From IMG/VR virus record IMGVR_UViG_3300047300_000022, positions 1 through 34,593 of that record: a stretch of 34,593 bases of DNA, one strand, 5' to 3'. This document shows positions 362-22,037 of this stretch, in pieces. A model generated the notes under the pieces. It searched no databases. It saw only the letters and a program-made list of their open reading frames with translations, and was not told where the DNA came from. The DNA comes from a virus. Position 1 is the stretch's first letter. Every line of letters starts with the position of its first letter. A program made the translations under genes and the position numbers.

Positions 362-961
362 TTATGAAGTCAATACTGCAAGTGCGTGATTTATATGCTT
401 TTCTCTGTCTGCCAATCCAATAAAACCACCATTTATCTTCTTGGTCATGGTCTTGTAGTCACGAGAATCGGCATATTGGTTGAGTTTTTGGACATCCCAA
501 AACCATCCTGCTGTGAGAGCCGCATACATTGGAGTAGCAACCAAATCAGGGTTCATCACAAAATCAACTCCTAAGGCTTGTCCTGCATGGTAGTAGTTGG
601 CATGACCCGTCAACTGGATGCAACCACGACCTCTAAAACGCCATCCATCACCAGAAGCCTCATCTCTATTACCCATACGATTGGAGTAAACAGTATTGGC
701 AATCAACTTAGGGTTTCTAGCACAAGCCTGTGCCTTGGCAGCATCAAAGCGTTTAGGCCATAACTTCTGCAAAGCCTCTGCACGATAATTTAAATTCTCC
801 TCAAGAATCTTAAAGTTACCGCATTCATGCCCACATTGACCAATGAAAGCCGCTTGTCGATATGGTGTAGATATATCAAACCTATCAAAAGTGGCATTCA
901 GACCATCAAGCCATTGCTCACCAATGTGAAGTTGTTTAAGTTGTTCAGCGGTTATTGACAT
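362..961 (-). CDS. GH19 chitinase-like endolysin
   Basis: This 199-aa protein degrades peptidoglycan at lysis. The glycoside hydrolase 19 fold is recognisable: GHECGNF at 44-50 carries the likely catalytic acid E46, EENLNYR at 54-60 carries the second acidic residue, and RFRGRGCIQLTGH at 108-120 is the hallmark substrate-cleft motif, followed by NPDLVATP. It has no signal peptide or membrane anchor, so export through a holin is expected. Its start overlaps the Rz stop by 17 nt, placing it last in the holin, Rz/Rz1, endolysin cassette. The length is usual for a single-domain phage GH19 lysozyme. Confidence 0.93.
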   Translation of the reverse strand: MSITAEQLKQLHIGEQWLDGLNATFDRFDISTPYRQAAFIGQCGHECGNFKILEENLNYRAEALQKLWPKRFDAAKAQACARNPKLIANTVYSNRMGNRDEASGDGWRFRGRGCIQLTGHANYYHAGQALGVDFVMNPDLVATPMYAALTAGWFWDVQKLNQYADSRDYKTMTKKINGGFIGLADREKHINHALAVLTS

Positions 962-1445
962 TTAACAAGTCTCTCATCTGATTGTAAGAATCAACGCAAG
1001 CGTTCAAAGCGGCAGTATTTTTGTCACCAGCAGCTACTATTTCTGCGATGGCTTCGATGGTTGCTCTTTCGGCATCAGAAGCTGTGTCAGTCTGTCTGTC
1101 AGGTTGACTGGTTGCTTCTGTATTTGTGGTGGCAATGGGGGAACTTGGGGTGGTTTGTAGGTTACTTGAGGGGCAGAGGCGCAACTTGCCAGCACGATTG
1201 GCAACAGCAAGAGCATTAGTTTTTTTGTTGATAGCATCATTAGCCTCCTGTAATTTAGTAGATTGTTCGTTAAGTTTCTCTGTCATGTTTTGCTCGATCT
1301 TACGAGCCTCTTCATTCTTTTTGGCAATGGCTATCTTCATGTCGTTATCACGCTCTAGCCATCCGTAATGATGTCCTACCCTGTAAGTACCAAACAAAGA
1401 TATAAGAACACCAACAATTAACCAAGGTAAAGGAATAGGTAGCAT
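945..1445 (-). CDS. Rz: Rz-like inner-membrane spanin
   Basis: The 166-aa protein has an N-terminal membrane anchor at about residues 6-23 (LPWLIVGVLISLFGTY). A long charged, coiled-coil-prone periplasmic part follows (about 35-90), then a Thr/Ser/Pro-rich stretch and an Ala-rich helix. This is the i-spanin plan: with the outer-membrane lipoprotein Rz1 it disrupts the outer membrane at lysis. The identification rests mainly on the Rz1-type frame nested inside it and on the position between holin and endolysin. Its ATG overlaps the holin TAA by one base (TAATG), implying translational coupling. Confidence 0.85.
   Translation of the reverse strand: MLPIPLPWLIVGVLISLFGTYRVGHHYGWLERDNDMKIAIAKKNEEARKIEQNMTEKLNEQSTKLQEANDAINKKTNALAVANRAGKLRLCPSSNLQTTPSSPIATTNTEATSQPDRQTDTASDAERATIEAIAEIVAAGDKNTAALNACVDSYNQMRDLLNVNNR
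1037..1237 (-). CDS. Rz1: Rz1-like outer-membrane spanin lipoprotein, nested in Rz
   Basis: A frame lies wholly inside Rz, shifted by one base. It encodes about 66 aa with a lipoprotein signal: a lysine-containing start, LMLLLLPIVLASC with lipobox LAS-C, then a short proline-rich mature chain (YKPPQVPPLPPQ). This is the classic o-spanin architecture. Two adjacent ATGs exist at 1240 and 1237. AGGAGG lies three bases before the first and six before the second, so 1237 is preferred. Proline richness and the lipobox together make a chance frame unlikely. Confidence 0.88.
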   Translation of the reverse strand: MLSTKKLMLLLLPIVLASCASAPQVTYKPPQVPPLPPQIQKQPVNLTDRLTQLLMPKEQPSKPSQK

Positions 1446-1969
1446 TAATCAGCCTCCTGTCGAGCAACAGCTAATTGAACTCGCTCATGGTCATCTTCCA
1501 AGTGATCTGGTGGTGTAGTCGGTGGAGGGCCTGGTGTCCAACTTTCATCCAACTCTGGGTTATTCCAAACAGGCATTGCACCAAATGGTTGGCTAGGCAA
1601 TCCATAAGCAGACTGAGAAGGTGCATAGGAAGCGTTAAAATTACCCATAGAGCCGTTATTACCCATTGGTTGACACATTGGTTGCATTGGAGGTTGAGGC
1701 GCTCCAAAAGCCTTTGATCCAGCGGCTACTGCTCTCTTAGACATCACTCCACCAATACCACCTACGATCAAAAGAACGATGTCATTCAGCATCTTGGTAT
1801 AGGCTTGGTCAATCGGAGCCATGCTTTTGATTGGCTGTGTCACAAAGGTGACAGAATAGAGCAAAGCAACAACAATGAAACACAGGATACAAGTGACCGC
1901 AATGACCACAAAACCCCAGATTCGTACCTCGATTTCGTCAGGGGTTAGGTTTTGTTTCTGGTTGGACAT
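1445..1969 (-). CDS. Putative holin with two membrane segments
   Basis: The 174-aa protein has two hydrophobic segments: about residues 17-42 (GFVVIAVTCILCFIVVALLYS) and about 62-78 (DIVLLIVGGIGGVMS). A long Pro/Gln/Met/Asn-rich cytoplasmic-looking tail follows and ends in acidic residues. Two membrane spans directly upstream of Rz/Rz1 and endolysin fit a class II holin. The tail is longer than in typical holins. Start 1969 overlaps the upstream lipoprotein gene by 32 nt, and the stop shares one base with the Rz start. Function is inferred from topology and neighbours. Confidence 0.65.
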   Translation of the reverse strand: MSNQKQNLTPDEIEVRIWGFVVIAVTCILCFIVVALLYSVTFVTQPIKSMAPIDQAYTKMLNDIVLLIVGGIGGVMSKRAVAAGSKAFGAPQPPMQPMCQPMGNNGSMGNFNASYAPSQSAYGLPSQPFGAMPVWNNPELDESWTPGPPPTTPPDHLEDDHERVQLAVARQEAD

Positions 1970-2141
1970 CGGATACTTTCTTTTCTAAGATGGGTGCAAC
2001 TAGATATTCTGGGCATTGCTGAGTGAACAAACACTTAGGTTTCTGACATTGTTCAGCATGAAAGTTGTCAGGGTTCTGGCAAAAATATCTGTATCTGTCT
2101 TCACATCCAGTTAGTAGCAATAACAAAAGCAAATATCTCAT
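1938..2141 (-). CDS. Small cysteine-rich lipoprotein
   Basis: The 67-aa product begins MRYLLLLLLLTGC, a very short lipoprotein signal peptide with lipobox LTG-C. The mature chain has four further cysteines (C21, C32, C37 and C43) and ends Lys/Pro-rich. It is expected to be a lipid-anchored periplasmic protein. Its ATG overlaps the stop of the 58-aa gene (ATGA) and its end overlaps the holin start. The position suggests a lysis accessory or superinfection-exclusion factor; neither is shown. Confidence 0.8.
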   Translation of the reverse strand: MRYLLLLLLLTGCEDRYRYFCQNPDNFHAEQCQKPKCLFTQQCPEYLVAPILEKKVSDVQPETKPNP

Positions 2142-2314
2142 ACCATTACATCCACTTGTGAGTTCTTAATCCAATGAGTCTTAATCTCTTGGACTTTCTG
2201 TTGATGGTCTGCTTGTCTGTTCAATTCGGCTAACCTTGCCATATTCTGCTGATGGATCACCCTGTGAGCCTCCCACATCATTTTGGCATTTTGTTGGTAA
2301 GTGTTGATTTTCAT
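2138..2314 (-). CDS. 58-aa hypothetical protein, ATGA-coupled
   Basis: ATG 2314 to TGA 2138 encodes 58 aa beginning MKINTYQQNAKMMWEAHRV, hydrophilic and rich in Gln, His and Asn, probably helical. It has no membrane segment. Both ends are ATGA overlaps, with the 49-aa gene upstream and the lipoprotein gene downstream. That is the main support for it as a real gene. An alternative frame (60 codons, 2181-2363) covers the same DNA but breaks the overlap pattern. Function unknown. Confidence 0.72.
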   Translation of the reverse strand: MKINTYQQNAKMMWEAHRVIHQQNMARLAELNRQADHQQKVQEIKTHWIKNSQVDVMV

Positions 2315-2460
2315 AACCCAATCTTTCCCAATAAAAGTGCCACAATTTTGTTTGATAAGTCATCAGGTAAGAACTTTAAGAAACCTAAGAACCACCAAGC
2401 TACACAGCCGTAAATAAAGACCTTCAGAAACATGTCAAATTGTTTCTGATACTCGTTCAT
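2311..2460 (-). CDS. 49-aa membrane microprotein, ATGA-coupled
   Basis: ATG 2460 to TGA 2311 encodes 49 aa with one hydrophobic segment (VFIYGCVAWWFLGFLKFL, about residues 14-31) and a second weak one near the C-terminus (IVALLLGKIGL). Both ends overlap neighbours by ATGA. A single-span membrane protein beside holin and spanin genes could be an antiholin or pinholin-like factor, but nothing in the sequence proves it. Confidence 0.72.
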   Translation of the reverse strand: MNEYQKQFDMFLKVFIYGCVAWWFLGFLKFLPDDLSNKIVALLLGKIGL

Positions 2461-2957
2461 CTGCCACACCCACCTTTAGGACACAGACTCATTAACTCAT
2501 TGATGCCAATGAACACCAAAAACAGAACAAAGACAATGCCACCAATGATGATTGCCCACTCTTGCATCTCTTGTTCTTGTTCTTTAGCTTTCTTTTCAGC
2601 CGCCCTCAAAGCAGCCATCTCTTTAGCATCATCCCTGTCCATCTGTGCTTGACGCTCTTTGATCTTGTTCCAGACATCAATCTTGCCTGTCTGCATGAAC
2701 AACATCTTGAGTTCTTCCTCAAACGCTCTTGCTTGCTCTAGCGCCATCTCAATCTGTAGAGCAGCACCCATGTTTGAACCACGCTTTTCACGCTTTGCCT
2801 CAAGCATCGCTTTTGTAGCAACACTCTTAGCATCAAACATCTTGCCAATCATGGGGGCAAGACCACCTATGTCATTGGCTACCTTACTAGCCTTTTTGAC
2901 CATCGAAATGGCGTTCTGTAGGCCATTTAACGCACTTATCGGATCAATAGGAATCAT
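2457..2957 (-). CDS. Coiled-coil protein with C-terminal membrane anchor
   Basis: The 166-aa product starts MIPIDPISALNGL. An in-frame GTG at 2972 would add five residues, but ATG 2957 has GGGAGAAGAG upstream and shares ATGA with the preceding gene. It has a long Ala/Glu/Lys/Arg helical region (about 50-130, including KERQAQMDRDD and AEKKAKEQEQEM) and a membrane span at about 135-155 (IIIGGIVFVLFLVFIGIN). It ends with a short CPKGGCGR tail. This predicts a tail-anchored coiled coil. The role is unknown; it sits between ejection-type proteins and the lysis cassette. Confidence 0.78.
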   Translation of the reverse strand: MIPIDPISALNGLQNAISMVKKASKVANDIGGLAPMIGKMFDAKSVATKAMLEAKREKRGSNMGAALQIEMALEQARAFEEELKMLFMQTGKIDVWNKIKERQAQMDRDDAKEMAALRAAEKKAKEQEQEMQEWAIIIGGIVFVLFLVFIGINELMSLCPKGGCGR

Positions 2958-3067
2958 TTTCTCTTCTCCCACTTGAGACAGACTACTTTGCGATTAAACA
3001 CATCGCCAGTCCAAGTCCATTTAACACATCGGTATTCAATGGTTGCCGCCAAGAGAAAGGCGATCAT
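2954..3067 (-). CDS. 37-aa microprotein, ATGA-coupled
   Basis: ATG 3067 to TGA 2954 encodes 37 aa: MIAFLLAATIEYRCVKWTW and then a basic end (KWEKRK). The first residues are hydrophobic but short, the rest polar with two cysteines. It overlaps both neighbours by ATGA, and its end carries the Shine-Dalgarno of the next gene (GGGAGAAGAG). Its function may be partly to couple translation. Confidence 0.6.
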   Translation of the reverse strand: MIAFLLAATIEYRCVKWTWTGDVFNRKVVCLKWEKRK

Positions 3068-3156
3068 GGAAATGCCCAGATAACAATATAACTACAAAAT
3101 ATGACAAAAGCAGTAAGAAGGACTGCCGCTAAATAAGCAACAGCCCACTCTTTCAT
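3064..3156 (-). CDS. 30-aa single-span membrane microprotein
   Basis: ATG 3156 to TGA 3064 encodes 30 aa, MKEWAVAYLAAVLLTAFVIF and on to WAFP, almost entirely one membrane helix. It starts within the stop of the 648-aa ejection-type gene (ATGA) and ends in an ATGA with the 37-aa gene. The overlaps on both sides and the clean hydrophobic pattern support it despite its length. Confidence 0.65.
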   Translation of the reverse strand: MKEWAVAYLAAVLLTAFVIFCSYIVIWAFP

Positions 3157-5099
3157 GGCTTAAATTCAGCTTTATTCAACGCTTCGTTAATTCGTGCTTT
3201 TGTCTTATTATTCTTGATCTGTTGACTTGCAACACGAACTAAACTCAGTACAGGAACTGGCAAACCAGTCAAAGCACCAGTAGCACCAGCTTCTGCCATT
3301 GCACTCATCAAAGCCATTGAAGTACCAGAACTGTTAATCAATGTTCCTGGTGGTACTGTCTGAACATACTTCACGACTTCATTTAAGTCACGAATAGTTT
3401 GAGCCTTTTCTTTACCCAAAATGATATCCAAACGACCATCTGAATCCAAAGCATTGACTGCTTGATTAAGTTTTGCAGGAGAAACAATAGGTCTGCCACT
3501 AGAGTCAGTTTGCAAACCACTTGTTGCAACATTCTCCAAGTGCTTAATGGTTGCACCTTGCAATTCTTTCATTGCTTGTTGACCATTCTTGCCACTTGTC
3601 AGCAAAACTCTACGCAAGAAAGTAACTTCCTCTGGAGTTGCATTTAAGATAGAACGATTAAATGCTTCACTAGCAGCTACTTTAGGATCGTCTTTACCTT
3701 TAACAGCAGTTAACAAGTTAGCAACTACAGCACGACCTTCATATTTACGAGCTTGAGACTCACGCAAAGCACGAGCTTCTGCATATAGTGGGCCAGCAGT
3801 ATCTTTTGTAGTTTCATCAATGATTGACTTCAAAATAGCAGACTGACGCTTGTTGACAATGTCATAGTCAGTAGCCATGTTGATTTCTCTACGCAACTCT
3901 TCCAACTTCTTAACAGTTGCATCCAATGCTACTAAATTACCATTTTCATCTTTAGTAGCAATTCCTAGTTTTACAGCAAACTGTTTGGCAGTATCAGGAA
4001 TAGCAGAAGATGGAACTCCACTTGGTTGGCTATTCAAGTAATCAAATAATGTAGTCTGTGTCTCTTGATCGCCATACTTAATAGTTCTTGGTAATGTCAA
4101 ATCTACTGGCAACAATGCTTCAGGAGAGTTATCTGCCTTGCGATAAGCAGCAGCAGTCTTAGCTTTAGCACCTTGCCAACCTTGTGACAAAGCATCAATA
4201 ACCGCATTACCAGTAGCAGCAGGGCCAATAGCCGCAGTCTGAGAACCAGTCATGTCAATCAAAGCATCAAAGTTCTGCAATGCTTGCAGATTGTTTTGTT
4301 CTGCTCTCTGACGGAGTGGTTCACCCAATGGGCCTTTAATTTGTTCTTTCTCAAAAGCCAATTGAGCAGCATTACGCTCTCTAGCTCCAAGAGTTAAATC
4401 AACAGGAACTGGAAGACCTTGAGCAGTTACTTCACGCTGTAATCCTGCAGGAGTTGCAGCAGCACCAGCACTTGTACGAGCACCAACACCAGTAGTAGGT
4501 GTTAAGTCCATTCCTAATGCTTCTTTAACGATGCTAGTGCCTCGTTGAGCGCCCTGAGAAATCTGTTGAGCGCCTTGTTGGACAGACTGCAAACCACGCA
4601 ATGCAGTAGCCTCTGTAATGGGTGTAGCCTGTTTTAAAGCCTGACCAAGCATTCCAGCCTCAGTAACGACAGGAATAACAGGAGGCAATGCTTCTGCAAC
4701 CTTACCAATAGCCTGAACTTGCTCCATGCCTGATTGAGTTCTAGGCATATAGGTGTAACGCTGACCACCAGCCATAGCTTGCTCTTGAATAGCTCTAAGA
4801 GCCTCTGGAGTGCCAAACTTGCCTGCTTTTGCTTGCTCAATAGCGCCAGTAATACCGCCACCAATAGTTCCTAGCAAACCAGTAGTACCACCAGTTAACA
4901 AGGTCAATCCTGCTTCACCAGCGCCAAGCAGTTGATCTCCTAATCCTGATGGTGCAGGACTAGGAGCAGTAGCCATCTGAGCAGTATTCTGCTGACTCTT
5001 CGCTATTTGATAAGCCTGAGCAACAGTTTCAAACTCTGGCGTTCCTTGTTTTGCCCTATTTTGGACAATCCAAGTTGCGTATTCTTCTGCTGTAGCCAT
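3153..5099 (-). CDS. Large internal virion (ejection-type) protein A
   Basis: The 648-aa product begins MATAEEYATWIVQNRAKQ and GTPEFETVAQAYQ, an N-terminal helix pattern recurrent in internal virion proteins of short-tailed phages. A glycine-rich hydrophobic stretch at about 60-90 (LLTGGTTGLLGTIGGGITGA) is followed by long Ala/Gln/Glu helices and another Gly/Ala hydrophobic patch near 600. Such proteins leave the virion with the DNA and form a conduit across the envelope. It is first of three consecutive large Ala/Gln-rich genes. The start shares one base with the previous stop (TAATG). Assignment rests on composition and position. Confidence 0.65.
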   Translation of the reverse strand: MATAEEYATWIVQNRAKQGTPEFETVAQAYQIAKSQQNTAQMATAPSPAPSGLGDQLLGAGEAGLTLLTGGTTGLLGTIGGGITGAIEQAKAGKFGTPEALRAIQEQAMAGGQRYTYMPRTQSGMEQVQAIGKVAEALPPVIPVVTEAGMLGQALKQATPITEATALRGLQSVQQGAQQISQGAQRGTSIVKEALGMDLTPTTGVGARTSAGAAATPAGLQREVTAQGLPVPVDLTLGARERNAAQLAFEKEQIKGPLGEPLRQRAEQNNLQALQNFDALIDMTGSQTAAIGPAATGNAVIDALSQGWQGAKAKTAAAYRKADNSPEALLPVDLTLPRTIKYGDQETQTTLFDYLNSQPSGVPSSAIPDTAKQFAVKLGIATKDENGNLVALDATVKKLEELRREINMATDYDIVNKRQSAILKSIIDETTKDTAGPLYAEARALRESQARKYEGRAVVANLLTAVKGKDDPKVAASEAFNRSILNATPEEVTFLRRVLLTSGKNGQQAMKELQGATIKHLENVATSGLQTDSSGRPIVSPAKLNQAVNALDSDGRLDIILGKEKAQTIRDLNEVVKYVQTVPPGTLINSSGTSMALMSAMAEAGATGALTGLPVPVLSLVRVASQQIKNNKTKARINEALNKAEFKP

Positions 5100-6640
5100 T
5101 AACGACCTCCACGCAAGATAGCATCTGCTGCACTCATAATATTAGAAGTTTGAGCATTTGGTGTTGGTCTATTGGGCGTAGGAATTTGATTTACCAAAGC
5201 CTGACGCTGACCTTCACGGCTTGCACCTGAATAACGATCATTTACATCTTTAGCAACACGAGATGAGAAGTCATTGAATGACTCACCTGGTCGAACAGTA
5301 AAGTCACCAGCAATAAATGTACTGCCTGCACGAGTCAAAGCGCCATTGTTCTTGGCAAGCCAATCAGTCTTAGCATTTGCAACAGCAGAGTCAATATCTT
5401 GCAATTTAGCCATACCACGCAAGAATTGTGCGATATTGGCAGAGTTAGAAGTGTCTTTAGGGAATCCAGATAGAGCCATTTGGATGTCTTTATCCGTTGC
5501 AGGGCCAGGTGGCAATGCTTTAATTGCTGCGCTGTTACGCAAACGAGTGTATTCCTGACGCAAAGAAGTCTCATAGCCTTCTGCACCAATTGTAGACTTA
5601 GCAAACTCACTAAGGCTAGACAACTTGCCATAACCACCAAGGCTTTCAATTCTGTTTGCCAGATCATTGAACTGGTCAGCAGATTGTTTAGCAGTAGCAG
5701 CTACGACAGCATTCTCGTTAATCAGTTTACGAGTATCAGCAGGAATCTCTGTATTCAATTTGTTAATCTGAGCCAGTTTCTCCAACACATTGACATTAGT
5801 CATCTGAGTGTCTAAGTTCAATTTAGCACCTCGAGTACCAATCTCACTCTGCAGATTCTTAATGTTCCAAGTCTTCTCTTGCAAACCAAGCTCTTGCGCT
5901 CTTTGAGTAAACTGAGACTCAATAACTGCTTTAGTAGCATCTGCTGACTTTTTAAGCAATTCAGCTCGTTCTGTTGGAGATGCCACATCTGCTTTAGCTT
6001 GTGCAGAAACAGCTTCAGCCGCCAGTTTATTGGTCTTAGCAGCCGCTTCTTGTGCTTTATAGATGCTTTCCAACTCAGCACGACCAGCAGGAGTCTGTAA
6101 CAATTGTGCTTCAACACGCTTGATGTCATAGCTTGGGCCACTAACACCAGCACCAGGCATCACATTTCCTTCATCATCTTTCAATGGGAATTGTGTTGGT
6201 TGACCATACATGGTTGGTTGACCAGGTTGGAATGCTTGCTGAGAAATCTGACGAGCCTGTAAAGCTTCTTGTTGAGCCTGAATTTGGGCCTGTCTTTGAG
6301 TCATTTGGTCAGCAGTTGTAAGCAAACGCAAAGCTAAGTCTTGATTACCAAGTTGACTTGCTTTTTGAGCAGCTTGAGTCAATGCAACTGGATTAGTAAT
6401 GTCCAAACCACGCATGATCTCTTGTTGCTGAGTAATCATTCGCAATTGTGGGTCTTCAGCACCAAGCAAACCACCAACAGCACGACCAAGACCAGCAGCG
6501 CCTGCATAAGTCATAGCCGCACCTCGAGCCTCAGGAGACATATTAGACAACTGAACACCTTGATTCAAAGCAGCCATCTGCTGTTGTTGACCATACATTT
6601 CGGGAGTTAACCCGAATAAGCTAGGAATAATATCTGCCAT
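5099..6640 (-). CDS. Large internal virion (ejection-type) protein B
   Basis: ATG 6640 is preferred over an upstream TTG at 6652 because GGAG lies before it, giving 513 aa. The N-terminus (MADIIPSLFGLTPEMYGQQQ) leads into Gln/Ala-rich helices and a Gly/Ala patch (AGAAGLGRAVGGLLGA, about 45-60). A long coiled-coil-prone middle follows (about 180-330), with a polar C-terminus rich in Asn and Pro. It has no catalytic motif. Composition and position between two similarly large helical genes point to an internal core or ejection protein. Confidence 0.6.
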   Translation of the reverse strand: MADIIPSLFGLTPEMYGQQQQMAALNQGVQLSNMSPEARGAAMTYAGAAGLGRAVGGLLGAEDPQLRMITQQQEIMRGLDITNPVALTQAAQKASQLGNQDLALRLLTTADQMTQRQAQIQAQQEALQARQISQQAFQPGQPTMYGQPTQFPLKDDEGNVMPGAGVSGPSYDIKRVEAQLLQTPAGRAELESIYKAQEAAAKTNKLAAEAVSAQAKADVASPTERAELLKKSADATKAVIESQFTQRAQELGLQEKTWNIKNLQSEIGTRGAKLNLDTQMTNVNVLEKLAQINKLNTEIPADTRKLINENAVVAATAKQSADQFNDLANRIESLGGYGKLSSLSEFAKSTIGAEGYETSLRQEYTRLRNSAAIKALPPGPATDKDIQMALSGFPKDTSNSANIAQFLRGMAKLQDIDSAVANAKTDWLAKNNGALTRAGSTFIAGDFTVRPGESFNDFSSRVAKDVNDRYSGASREGQRQALVNQIPTPNRPTPNAQTSNIMSAADAILRGGR

Positions 6641-6652
6641 TTTGCTCTCCAA

Positions 6653-10092: not shown

Positions 10093-11652
10093 TCATGCTA
10101 TCTTCCCATTCTTAGCTTGAATTTCAATTTTCTGAATAGAGCATTGTGCTCCGTTGATAGTAAGTTCATATCCAGTCTGAACAACCTTACCTGATCCACT
10201 TGCAGATACTGTCAATGTGTTTAATGCGATACCATCAGAGTAGTAAGCAAGCGTTGTCGCATTAGCTCCATATTCAGCAATACCATATTGAGCAACACCT
10301 TGAATAGGAATTGTTGCATTAGCACTCAAGTAATTAGTTTTAAAATCAAATCCCCACTTAATAGTGACAGTTTGATTTGTTCCACCAATGACAACAGCAG
10401 ATATCTTTTTCAAGATTGATGTCTGATTAACATTTCCAAGGTCTGCATTGTTTGTGTAATACAACATCCGATAAGATGCAGTATCGTCAAGATACCCAGT
10501 ATGCGTTCCAATGTAACCATTCTTACCTAAGTACAAATCACCATTTCTACGAGATAAGAATGCAGTTGGTTCAATAGAGTCCCAAGTTGTTACTCGTGAA
10601 GAGCCATCTTGCAACATGACTTTAGTGTCAAAGCAGTAAACAGACTTATAAGTTGGCATTGTGAGCAAGTAAAAACCTTCACGCTCAGAATACACAGACT
10701 TAATGTTTGCCAATGTTTGACCAGCAACTGCAGTCATCAAATCATTGCGAACATTCTTAGACAAATCACGCTCTGGTGCAGACTTCTCTTGAATGGTTCT
10801 CATCAAAGAACGAACACCACTATTTGACAAGAAAACAACATCAGAGCTAGTTGTTTGAACAGAGTCTCTAGCCAAGCATCCAATGCCACCAATGGTATCG
10901 TATAGACTCATTGTTGATGGTGTTGTAGCTCCTTGATAAACCAAGATTTGACGCTTACCAAAGATAAACAAGAAGCCATTGTGAGCAGCCAATGCTTGTA
11001 CTTCATCAGCACCATTAGGCCAAATCTGATTAACATTCAATGAACCTGAAGTGCCACCAGTCCAAACATGACCAGTTAGCAAATCAGAAAATGTGATAGT
11101 TGTTTTGTCACTAGAAGTATTAGCTACCCACAAGCGACCAAAGGCAGAAATTGCCAAGTTTGCCAATGGAACAGTACCGCCATAACCAGACTTCTCACTT
11201 GCTCTGCGATAAGTAGTAGTACTTACTGCAGGGTCGTATATCAAAGGATCATGGCCTGTTTGAAAGAAATATGTAATTCCATTCAAAGATGCACATTGCC
11301 AGTTACTAGCAGTAATCGTAGGAGCAGTACCACCACCCCCATAGGTCAACTCAGTAACTGCATTTGATGTACCGAGCTTAAACAACTTATTGTTGCCAGC
11401 AAACAAAACAGTCAAAGTGCCATCAGTCTGAACCAACTCATGAATAACACCAACATCATTTGCACCAAGGTTTCCAGAAGATGAATTAACCTTGCTCCAG
11501 CCCTTACGAGAGCCAATGCGACCATATTGGTCAATGACACAGTTAGTTGCGACTAAAGCAAATCCAGCAGCCAAATCTAATGGGCTGTCTTGCGTATTCA
11601 GGCCGTAGAAGCCTGGCGCAGATATGCTGAAGGTTTGGATAGCTTGAGCCAT
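10093..11652 (-). CDS. Tail nozzle / head-tail stabilisation protein
   Basis: The 519-aa protein begins MAQAIQTFSISAPGFYGLNT and QDSPLDLAAGFALVATNCVID, with YGRIGSRKGWSKV, a pattern typical of the large beta-propeller-like tail proteins of podophages (T7 gp12 or P22 gp10 role). Repeated beta motifs such as FGRLWVANTSS, HNGFLFIFGKRQILVYQG and DVVFLSNSGVRSL support a propeller. It follows the gp11-like adaptor with a TAATG overlap, the usual order. Whether it is closer to the T7 or P22 type cannot be settled here. Confidence 0.75.
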   Translation of the reverse strand: MAQAIQTFSISAPGFYGLNTQDSPLDLAAGFALVATNCVIDQYGRIGSRKGWSKVNSSSGNLGANDVGVIHELVQTDGTLTVLFAGNNKLFKLGTSNAVTELTYGGGGTAPTITASNWQCASLNGITYFFQTGHDPLIYDPAVSTTTYRRASEKSGYGGTVPLANLAISAFGRLWVANTSSDKTTITFSDLLTGHVWTGGTSGSLNVNQIWPNGADEVQALAAHNGFLFIFGKRQILVYQGATTPSTMSLYDTIGGIGCLARDSVQTTSSDVVFLSNSGVRSLMRTIQEKSAPERDLSKNVRNDLMTAVAGQTLANIKSVYSEREGFYLLTMPTYKSVYCFDTKVMLQDGSSRVTTWDSIEPTAFLSRRNGDLYLGKNGYIGTHTGYLDDTASYRMLYYTNNADLGNVNQTSILKKISAVVIGGTNQTVTIKWGFDFKTNYLSANATIPIQGVAQYGIAEYGANATTLAYYSDGIALNTLTVSASGSGKVVQTGYELTINGAQCSIQKIEIQAKNGKIA

Positions 11653-19142: not shown

Positions 19143-22037
19143 TTAGATAAGTGCGATGTTCTTGGCAGTACCAGAACTATTAAAGAAAGGCAGATATGAG
19201 TTACTTATCAAAGAAATAGTATCAGATGTGCCATCAGCTTTATAGAATGGGAAAACAAGAGTTGCACCACCACCAGTAGATGCAATTGTAATTCCACCAG
19301 AAGAGTTAGTGATTGTTATATTGCTACCAGCAGTCAAAGTAGATGCTGTATAACCAGTTCCGTTGCCAATTAACAACTGTCCATTAGTAGGTGTAGTTGT
19401 TAATCCAGTACCACCATTAGCGATAGGCAAAGCAGTACCGCTATATGTCATAGCCAAAGTACCAGAAGTGGTAATTGGGCTTCCTGAGATGCTAAAAATA
19501 GATGGAACAGTAGCAGATACAGAAGTAACAGTACCAGTATTAGAAGTATATCCATTAGGATTTGACGATGGATATGCACCCAATGCTGTTAAAGCATCTG
19601 CAGCAGTAGTAGCTCCTGTGCCTCCATTGGCAATAGGTAAAGCTGTACCACTATAAGTAATTGCCAAAGTTCCTGAAGAAGTTATTGGTGAACCACTTAC
19701 AGATAAGAATGATGGAACACTTGCTGCAACAGAAGTAACTGTACCTGAACTACCACTAGCGGCAATGGTTTGATTAGGCCATGAACCAGTAATAGAAATA
19801 TTAGTTCCAGCAACTAATCCTGGTGTTGAAGTTCCAGTTCCACCATTAGCAACAGCAACAACTCCAGTCACATTTGATGCAGTACCAGTTGTGTTCTGAT
19901 TCAAAGTAGGAATGTCAGCTGCAACAATTGCTCTGAATGTAGGCGCTCCAGATGAACCATTAGGAGAAGCTAATACATAGTTTGCAGTTTTAGAAGCATA
20001 AGGGTTCTGGGCGTCACCATAACCAGATGCAAGACTAATTGCAGGAGTTGCACCACCACTTGAAACAACTGGAGATGTAGCAGTTACATCAGTAACAGTT
20101 CCTTGTGGATTAGATGCTGTTGTAACGCTAGTCACACGACCATAAGTGTCAACAGTAATAACTGGAATCAAACTTGATGAACCAGTTGTTCCTGCAGTAA
20201 CTACGCCACTTGCTAAGTCAATAGCAGGAGTAGTTCCACCAGAAGATGTAATTCTTCCTGTTGAGCCAGAAACGGAAGTAACATAAGTGCCAGCAGCTTG
20301 CTTATTGTTAAATGTATTCCAGTCTGTGCTAGACAAATAACCATCAGTTGATGTCGTTGCTTGACTAATGCTAATAGCAGGAGTATTTCCACCACTAGAA
20401 GCAATAGGGGCAGTACCTGTGACGGATGTTACTGTTCCAGTATTAGATGTATATCCATTTGGGTTAGATGCAGGATAAGCACCCAATGAAGTCAATGCGG
20501 CAGATGCTGTTGTAGCTCCTGTACCACCATTGGCGATAGGAAGCGTACCATTGACACCAGCAGTCAGAGAAACTGTGTTCTTTTCCCAAAGTGAAGTTGT
20601 TGAGTTGTAAACAATAGTCTGACCATTGCTAGGAGATTGAGCTGAAACATTGTGCAACTCATCTAATTCATAGCCGTTCTGAACTTTAACAAATAATTTC
20701 CCATGAACAGCATGAGCATATTCAACTACTGCTACATATACCAAATGATCTGGAGCATAAGGTTTAGTAGTTGTATAAGTTCCTGCGGTTGTAGGACTTA
20801 AATATAGTTGAGCGCCATCTGTATATGCAGAAGTATCAATATCAGTAACCAATCCAATGATGGTCACATAACCATTAGAGTTATTGGCTAGATCGGCACT
20901 CATCACGCCCAATGTTTGAGCAGATGTTGAGTCACCAGTAGCAATAGCCTTGCTTACTGTTGGAAGTTGACCAGTAGCGCCAGTAATGTAAACAACTGTA
21001 CCTTTAGTTAAGGTTGCACCAGTTGTATTTCTTACTTGAACAATAACATTGGTGGTAGACGCTGCTACTGCTACAGACAAATCAGCCACACCAGATGCTG
21101 TAGAAACGCTCACAGAACCATCTGTTGAAGTAATGCTACCAATGGCATTAACATCGGTATAAGTAAGCGTTACAGCGCCAGTTTGACCATTTACACTTGT
21201 AACCAAGTTGGTTTGGTCAATCTTCTGCCAAACAGAACCATTGAAAAGTAACCAGTCACCTACTTGCCAATCGGTAATCCCATTTAGATTAGTTGATCCA
21301 GCAGTAGAAACAATGTAGTAATAGCCATTTGTGCCAGTACTAGAAGCAAGAGTAGGCGTGTTGGTAGAGGCATTCCATGTTCCTTGATAACTCAAACCAC
21401 CAGCGCCACCAACAGTAGCCCATGAAGTAGTCGTTCCATCTGTAGTTAGAAACTTACCAGAATTTCCTGTTTGGCTAGGAATCAGAGTGTTAATCTGAGT
21501 CTGCAAAGATGCCAAAGTATCTAAGACAGATTGAGAAGTGCCACCACCATTAGTGATAACTTTGATCTGGCTTGCCAACTCCATTGGTACGATTTCACCA
21601 ACATTGAGTTCATTGCCATTAGACAATGTAATAACTAAGCCACCATCAAAGTCAATATAAGCGTTAGTTACAGAAACACCATCTCTACCATCTACGCCAT
21701 CACGACCAGCAGGGCCTTGCATACCTTGTGGGCCTTGCAGACCATCACGACCAGGCATCCCGTCTTTACCATCTTTGCCATTAACGCCATCTTTGACGCT
21801 TTTGACTTCAATAAGTTTTTGTTCTAGCTTATTGCCAAGATCATCGTATCTTGAGCGGATATCTGCTTCAATTTTCTTAAGAGCTTGAACAACAAGGTCA
21901 ACATTCTCGCCAACTTTTTGTTTTTGCAATGCTCTTGCTTGTTCTACAGAGCTTCTGACCGAATCGAGAATTGCCTGTTGCTGTTCAGGCGTCATTTCTT
22001 TAAGGATTAAGTCCTTTACGAGACTTTCAGCGTCCAT
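19143..22037 (-). CDS. Collagen-like tail fibre
   Basis: The 964-aa protein starts with a helical region (about 1-80, including MTPEQQQAILDSVRSSVEQ). A collagen-like Gly-X-Y tract follows at about 84-120 (KDGKDGMPGRDGLQGPQG) and then a trimer-type beta fibre. A CBM-like segment (YQGTWNASTNTPTLAS, ITDWQVGDWLLFNGSVWQKI) is at about 220-280. The C-terminal half has repeated PIANGGTGATT, LGAYP-SNPNGYTSNTGTVTSV and SGSPIT-SGTLA units. These are common in long phage fibres. It overlaps the portal stop by 11 nt, so the N-terminus may attach near the portal/tail. Confidence 0.85.
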   Translation of the reverse strand: MDAESLVKDLILKEMTPEQQQAILDSVRSSVEQARALQKQKVGENVDLVVQALKKIEADIRSRYDDLGNKLEQKLIEVKSVKDGVNGKDGKDGMPGRDGLQGPQGMQGPAGRDGVDGRDGVSVTNAYIDFDGGLVITLSNGNELNVGEIVPMELASQIKVITNGGGTSQSVLDTLASLQTQINTLIPSQTGNSGKFLTTDGTTTSWATVGGAGGLSYQGTWNASTNTPTLASSTGTNGYYYIVSTAGSTNLNGITDWQVGDWLLFNGSVWQKIDQTNLVTSVNGQTGAVTLTYTDVNAIGSITSTDGSVSVSTASGVADLSVAVAASTTNVIVQVRNTTGATLTKGTVVYITGATGQLPTVSKAIATGDSTSAQTLGVMSADLANNSNGYVTIIGLVTDIDTSAYTDGAQLYLSPTTAGTYTTTKPYAPDHLVYVAVVEYAHAVHGKLFVKVQNGYELDELHNVSAQSPSNGQTIVYNSTTSLWEKNTVSLTAGVNGTLPIANGGTGATTASAALTSLGAYPASNPNGYTSNTGTVTSVTGTAPIASSGGNTPAISISQATTSTDGYLSSTDWNTFNNKQAAGTYVTSVSGSTGRITSSGGTTPAIDLASGVVTAGTTGSSSLIPVITVDTYGRVTSVTTASNPQGTVTDVTATSPVVSSGGATPAISLASGYGDAQNPYASKTANYVLASPNGSSGAPTFRAIVAADIPTLNQNTTGTASNVTGVVAVANGGTGTSTPGLVAGTNISITGSWPNQTIAASGSSGTVTSVAASVPSFLSVSGSPITSSGTLAITYSGTALPIANGGTGATTAADALTALGAYPSSNPNGYTSNTGTVTSVSATVPSIFSISGSPITTSGTLAMTYSGTALPIANGGTGLTTTPTNGQLLIGNGTGYTASTLTAGSNITITNSSGGITIASTGGGATLVFPFYKADGTSDTISLISNSYLPFFNSSGTAKNIALI

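Follow-up and report, generated by a model that had tools for sequence, protein, structure and literature searches.

What is a run of very small, overlapping genes doing between the putative ejection genes and the lysis genes of a phage? The window, the whole stretch of DNA that we analyzed, comprises 34,593 nt (positions 1 to 34,593 of the IMG/VR record IMGVR_UViG_3300047300_000022). The first-pass annotation had described five frames of 30, 37, 166, 49, and 58 aa that are linked by ATGA overlaps and followed by a 67-aa lipoprotein, and exactly this arrangement was found on the minus strand. The gene order on that strand is g517, g648, s30, s37, p166, s49, s58, lp67, hol174, Rz/Rz1, and GH19 endolysin, with the following features.

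5099..6652, minus strand: g517, putative ejection protein of 517 aa; matches phrog_917, 'released from the phage upon host infection' (E 6.8e-9)
3153..5099, minus strand: g648, putative ejection protein of 648 aa upstream of the chain; weak PHROG matches
3064..3156, minus strand: s30, single-span membrane microprotein of 30 aa; its start shares ATGA with the end of g648
2954..3067, minus strand: s37, protein of 37 aa with two cysteines; conserved core EYRC..W.W.GDVYNRKV.C..W
2457..2957, minus strand: p166, helical cytoplasmic domain and C-terminal span; phrog_32327, family function not annotated
2311..2460, minus strand: s49, one-span protein of 49 aa, obligate partner of p166
2138..2314, minus strand: s58, soluble helical/coil protein of 58 aa, optional
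1938..2141, minus strand: lp67, predicted lipoprotein of 67 aa; lipobox LLTGC
1445..1969, minus strand: hol174, two-span candidate holin with a Pro-rich C-terminal tail; phrog_25359, family function not annotated
945..1445, minus strand: Rz-like inner-membrane spanin subunit; phrog_312/1327/2466 (E about 1e-8)
1037..1240, minus strand: Rz1-like outer-membrane lipoprotein in another frame inside Rz; lipobox LASC, Pro-rich; present in 60/80 relatives
362..961, minus strand: GH19 endolysin; PF00182 (E 4.9e-12) and phrog_181 endolysin (E 2.6e-78)

The endolysin scored 46.6 bits against PF00182 (cut-off 25.5), which places it in Glyco_hydro_19, and the matches to phrog_312/1327/2466 together with the nested lipoprotein frame (1240-1037) mark Rz/Rz1 as a two-component spanin. 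None of the chain proteins had a match in Pfam, in NCBIfam, or to a named PHROG family, in line with the earlier suggestion of an uncharacterized, membrane-active set. Elsewhere in the window, a 519-aa tail/stabilization-like protein (10093-11652) matches virion structural families and also PHROG 5107, labeled 'lysis, amidase' (E 4e-28); this amidase label may be a PHROG misannotation. A 964-aa tail-fiber-like protein (19143-22037) carries collagen-like G-X-Y repeats near its N-terminus.

That the small frames are genes had been proposed from the repeated overlap, and conservation and selection support it. A tblastn search of the 80 nearest loci recovered s30 in 52, s37 in 70, p166 in 80, s49 in 80, s58 in 66, and lp67 in 69. 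Median pairwise omega was 0.45 for s30, 0.22 for s37, 0.08 for p166, 0.09 for s49, 0.14 for s58, and 0.12 for lp67. In every frame, s30 included, variability was higher at the third codon position than at positions 1-2 (permutation p < 0.0002), and no aligned orthologue of the six frames contained an internal stop. The objection that such frames might be missing from relatives thus falls away, and by these sequence measures all six are real genes. The most conserved member is p166, with relatives in >590 IMG/VR stretches among the matches listed. Nucleotide relatives of the window were absent from 50,697 phage records, in which the protein-level relatives were confined to metagenomic Manatee Spring records, and no copy of p166 was found in 84,980 bacterial and archaeal genomes. 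Judging by the Manatee Spring origin of the named phage records, we have the impression that these are largely freshwater phages.

Next, we considered the overlaps. ATGA occurs at six successive junctions: 3153-3156 (g648 to s30), 3064-3067, 2954-2957, 2457-2460, 2311-2314, and 2138-2141. Beyond these, lp67 and hol174 overlap by 32 bases, and hol174 and Rz by one base. Translation is coupled by termination-reinitiation at such 4-nt overlaps, which are enriched among genes of heteromeric complexes, and ATGA is the commonest overlap junction in dense prokaryotic genomes (PMC10666635). The overlaps could thus reflect compact packing of independent small genes with unrelated late functions, and the minus strand of the whole window does contain 29 ATGA junctions. 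In 300 order-3 Markov sequences, however, scored for ATGA junctions between ORFs of ≥25 aa, the longest chain was 1 in 259 draws, 2 in 39, and 3 in 2, against 6 in the window; we consider packing of unrelated genes barely credible. The junctions were also kept as ATGA or GTGA in relatives (p166 to s49 in 70/80, s49 to s58 in 66/66, s58 to lp67 in 59/63, s37 to p166 in 59/69, and s30 to s37 in 33/49).

The upstream microgenes differ from p166 and s49 in their start regions. A Shine-Dalgarno sequence is lacking in front of s30 in the window (-1.8 kcal/mol) and in 29/30 distinct relatives; that of s37 is weak in the window and missing in about 70% of relatives. One is present for p166 and s49 in the window and most relatives. 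The lack of Shine-Dalgarno sequences combined with the 4-nt overlaps suggests that translation of s30 and s37 depends on coupling, and we expect both to be translated solely by ribosomes arriving from the preceding gene. Whole microgenes are gained or lost while the overlaps persist, since nine loci contain an extra 29-aa one-span gene (family m29) between p166 and s49, the start of which overlaps the p166 stop by ATGA. Examples of m29 are L002:5489-5574 and L015:5480-5578, with seven further loci (sequence MTYFDVFL.AAVPLNYFFWIVVYP.LSNE). Insertions of ~470-620 bases split the chain in L064, upstream of p166 (about 1000-1220), and in L009 and L029, between s58 and lp67; the L064 insertion encodes an apparent AP2/HNH homing endonuclease fragment.

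Three of the chain proteins had been said to span the membrane, and we located the spans in s30 (residues 9-27), p166 (134-152), and s49 (10-28). A structural model of p166 with moderate confidence comprises four helices, the last one long and including the span. In the short tail after the span, two cysteines are nearly invariant in the family. No PDB structure matched p166 in a fold search, and the convincing scores were to unnamed viral proteins only. Among the s49-anchored loci, p166 lies upstream in 71/71. The lp67 family is a predicted bacterial lipoprotein family with signal peptide and lipobox, the latter in 80/80 members, and four conserved cysteines follow the lipid cysteine in 78/80. 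It is the second lipoprotein of the cassette and unrelated to Rz1.

The window copy of s37 has a weak N-terminal hydrophobic stretch. Relatives carry either a clear signal peptide (L023, L160, L163) or, in others, the N-terminus MDALPPPPP. Antiholins of the RI type have a cleavable signal peptide and a small, disulfide-containing periplasmic domain that binds T. In s37, two cysteines are conserved; signal peptides occur in some of its relatives and in none of the clade whose cassettes contain T202, a protein described below. In that clade the N-terminus is Pro-rich and non-signal, and we rejected the idea that s37 is uniformly a secreted peptide. We also rejected a disulfide-partner relationship in which the p166 tail cysteines covary with the presence of s37 (82/71/37/4). 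Similarities of s30 to the p166 span (hhalign probability 18%) and of lp67 to the signal peptide of the RI-like protein described below (31%, 15 columns) were put down to hydrophobic bias.

To place the chain in its genomic context, two further p166-anchored scans were performed, which yielded 241 p166 loci, 182 of them with at least 2.5 kb of downstream sequence. In 176/182 of these loci, p166 was followed within 3 kb by an endolysin (GH19, M15, GH24, or GH108). The gene preceding the endolysin (or Rz) was hol174, a PF11351 holin, or one of the PF11351-holin relatives hol1544 and hol6637. In M15/GH108 cassettes, the downstream neighbor was a PF11351 holin or hol1544, which resembles ICP1 TeaA (BLASTP 1e-6), an experimentally demonstrated holin (PMC7182436). 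Some relatives have an HP1/P21-type class II holin (PF16080, E 4e-11) or an XhlA-like protein upstream of s30/s37/p166. In MW202879, the p166 cassette is located elsewhere in the structural genes, after other genes, and again precedes a holin and an endolysin. The endolysin linkage, the holin neighbors, and the order in MW202879 show that the chain belongs to the lysis cassette, of which it is the first half. Its earlier placement between the ejection and lysis modules therefore holds in that it directly follows the ejection genes, but it lies inside the lysis cassette and is no separate membrane module. Against the lysis reading count L103, L153, and L155, in which XhlA/FNAA-s37-p166-T202 immediately precedes scaffold and capsid genes and an endolysin is missing from the vicinity.

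The holin itself is probably hol174. Its two spans and its position before the endolysin agree with the general layout of holins, which form lethal pores, and it fills the slot that GTA_holin_3TM-type holins take in other cassettes. It had no Pfam match and thus does not qualify as GTA_holin_3TM (PF11351), and hhalign comparisons with the GTAhol, hol1544, and hol6637 families were not significant. Together with lp67 it was present in 327 of 556 loci, and the two were discordant in 22.

This context bears on two of the three functions that the first-pass annotation had offered: entry channel, lysis control, and superinfection exclusion. If p166 and the small proteins were an extension of the ejection apparatus, acting as virion proteins that help DNA across the envelope, one would point to the position of the chain directly after putative ejection genes, to the overlap of s30 with the end of g648, and to the phrog_917 match of g517. 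The module, however, tracks lysis genes and not ejection genes, is exchanged for holin-type genes (see below), and in MW202879 p166 comes after other genes, yet a holin and an endolysin again follow it, which makes a part in ejection very improbable.

Known exclusion proteins include small lipoproteins, for example T5 Llp, and lp67, itself a conserved lipoprotein, carries four cysteines. The chain could accordingly be a moron-like superinfection-exclusion module beside the lysis genes, with lp67 as its exported lipoprotein. Against this stand the linkage to lysis genes (176/182), the tie between lp67 and hol174 (327 versus 22), the high conservation, and the replacement by a T-like holin set; moreover, no chain protein matched a PHROG moron family or Pfam. 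For lp67, PHROG, Pfam, and NCBIfam gave no match, and hence no homology to a known exclusion lipoprotein through these databases. We regard exclusion as improbable. For an entry channel or superinfection exclusion we found no evidence, although single members such as lp67 are not disproved in such roles, and of the three proposals lysis control is favored, because the block accompanies endolysin and holin genes in several types of cassette and alternates with a T4-type holin plus an RI-like gene.

The exchange became apparent in lp67-anchored loci, in which three kinds of occupant precede lp67-hol174-Rz-GH19:

First occupant: p166-s49-(s58), joined internally by ATGA
Second occupant: a longer, distant p166-like protein (L084, L338)
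Third occupant: T202, a 95/96-aa signal-peptide (RI-like) protein, and a 79-aa coil protein (c79), mostly with ATGA or GTGA joins

Both the p166 block and the T202 block were found between identical flanks, with XhlA-s30 before and lp67-hol174 after. The distant p166-like family of ~230 aa occupies the p166 slot in L084, L338, L343, and L361, with a weak phrog_32327 match in L084 and L338 and a 45-81-aa one-span partner in some loci. The overlapping block T202-RI-like-c79 was seen in L282, L297, L302, L313, and most of L491-L548; it may give small aquatic phages a lysis-inhibition system of the T/RI type. On one 46-kb contig (IMGVR_UViG_3300042516_001195), two p166 loci (L186 and L187) with the same tail sequence lie near both ends, probably owing to terminal redundancy of the assembly.

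Across the 556 loci, p166 (452 loci) and the RI-like gene (55) occurred together in none, nor did s49 (348) and T202 (136), counts that overstate independence owing to relatedness among the loci and to contigs that were included twice under different ids (unique proteins: 311 p166, 42 RI-like, 193 s49, and 111 T202). T202 and p166 coexist in 53 loci, which then have neither the RI-like gene nor s49, showing that p166 is not a mere stand-in for a T-like holin. T202 thus occurs with p166, with the RI-like gene, or alone, and p166 with T202 or with s49, a pattern that matches the expectation for pairs of regulator and effector in one process. A tree of the downstream block hol174 and GH19 requires at least 6 changes of slot type, of which 4 are forced by well-supported branches. 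No sequence relation was detected by hhalign between p166, s49, s58, or s37 and T202, the RI-like protein, or c79. As judged from the tree and these comparisons, the p166-s49-s58 block has been swapped repeatedly for a non-homologous one. The obligate pairing of p166 with s49 and the block-wise exchange indicate that at least the members of the p166/s49 block act together.

We then examined what T202 and the RI-like protein resemble. The model of T202 (pLDDT 76) shows one span and a periplasmic domain, a layout that fits T4 holin T, in which a short cytoplasmic N-terminus is followed by one span and a periplasmic GAF-like domain. Its best PDB match was the periplasmic domain of that protein (Foldseek, 6PSK_T at rank 1, E 3.8e-5). 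VIA-align also gave a T4 T chain first (6PX4_B, rank 1, Z 12.8), with GAF-domain chains within 1 Z of T4 T. Comparison with the T4 and T5 holin profiles yielded no convincing match (hhalign probability 44% and 10.5%). Relatives of T202 are encoded directly before the lysozyme gene in Edwardsiella phages. By its best matches, the modeled T202 would be a T4-like holin. The RI-like protein (95/96 aa) has a signal peptide; its likeness to antiholin RI is in layout only, and no family or phage record matched it significantly.

The sister cassettes thus resemble the T4 T/RI system (with RIII) in pairing a T-like one-span protein with a signal-peptide protein of ~95 aa and RI layout, which suggests that the slot works like a T/RI slot. 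The difference lies in p166 and s49, whose sequences show no relation to either the T-like or the RI-like protein of these cassettes. The span of p166 is C-terminal (134-152 of 166), behind an all-helical, cytoplasmic N-terminal part, so its layout is not that of a T4-type holin T, and s30 and s49 are too short for one. The M15/GH108 relatives recall ICP1 TeaA/ArrA, a GTA_holin_3TM holin with a neighboring antiholin, in that a PF11351 or TeaA-like holin lies beside p166; a holin-adjacent membrane protein as lysis regulator therefore has a tested precedent (PMC7182436). The window departs from ICP1 in that its hol174 has no PF11351 match. ICP1 ORF138 and ORF139, neighboring span proteins, were considered as relatives of p166 or s49 and were unlike them by eye. 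The window shares with Rz/Rz1 two-component spanin systems such a pair directly downstream of the chain, with Rz1 nested in Rz, and differs in having lp67 as a further, unrelated lipoprotein.

A different part in lysis, in which p166 (with s49) cooperates with hol174 as a further holin or pore component, so that the phage has two hole-forming systems, would be in keeping with the obligate pairing of two one-span proteins and with relatives that hold two or three holin-like genes per cassette (S21/HP1-type plus hol174, or T202 plus GTA_holin_3TM). Phage P1 (LydA/LydB/LydC/LydD) provides a precedent of several cooperating holins, and like the window it has several small holin-like and antiholin-like membrane proteins in one phage (PMC9025707). 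The P1 genes are spread across several operons, however, whereas the chain genes are all in one overlapping run. The large, conserved cytoplasmic helical domain of p166, its single C-terminal span, and the absence of a holin family match argue against a pore component, as does the fact that in M15 cassettes it occurs alongside both a GTA holin and a T-like holin. We therefore consider a second holin unlikely.

A lysis role for the chain is likely. The reading that we think probable, though by no means certain, is that the chain is the holin-control (lysis-timing) half of the lysis cassette, functions as one coupled unit, and substitutes for the T4-like holin and RI-like set. We infer the following mechanism. 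Ribosomes that finish g648 would reinitiate at s30 and proceed over the ATGA overlaps, with s30 and s37 as coupled accessory microproteins. At the inner membrane, the membrane-anchored, cytoplasmic helical p166 together with s49, and often s58, would set the time at which hol174 opens. The pair p166-s49 would restrain or trigger the holin, working inside the membrane and from its cytoplasmic side, and lp67 would be an exported lipoprotein companion of hol174. In sister phages, the same slot holds the T4-like holin and RI-like genes, for which the p166 set would be a non-homologous substitute.

A more far-reaching proposal, which we offer tentatively and with some doubt, is that p166-s49(-s58) constitutes a new, non-homologous device for lysis timing or lysis inhibition, widespread among uncultivated and largely freshwater phages, which has repeatedly replaced the T4-like holin and RI-like antiholin set while the rest of the cassette stayed the same. 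In this proposal, s30 and s37 would be micro-regulators that depend on coupling, and the disulfide-rich lipoprotein would be a possible outer-membrane sensor arm. No chain member has a homologue of tested function, and our literature search retrieved neither a paper on the p166-s49-s58 block nor an experiment on any member.

Lysis timing decides burst size, and to our knowledge the mechanism of lysis inhibition is known for few phages (T4, ICP1). In hundreds of aquatic phages that have not been cultivated, a conserved, unnamed block alternates with a T4-like holin/antiholin set, and a comparison of the two blocks can readily test which tasks an occupant of the slot has to perform. The analysis also lists microgenes of 30-58 aa, a size class usually missed by automatic annotation. 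Finally, judged by the fold likeness of the T202 model, the T-type holin fold would extend to small podovirus-like genomes.
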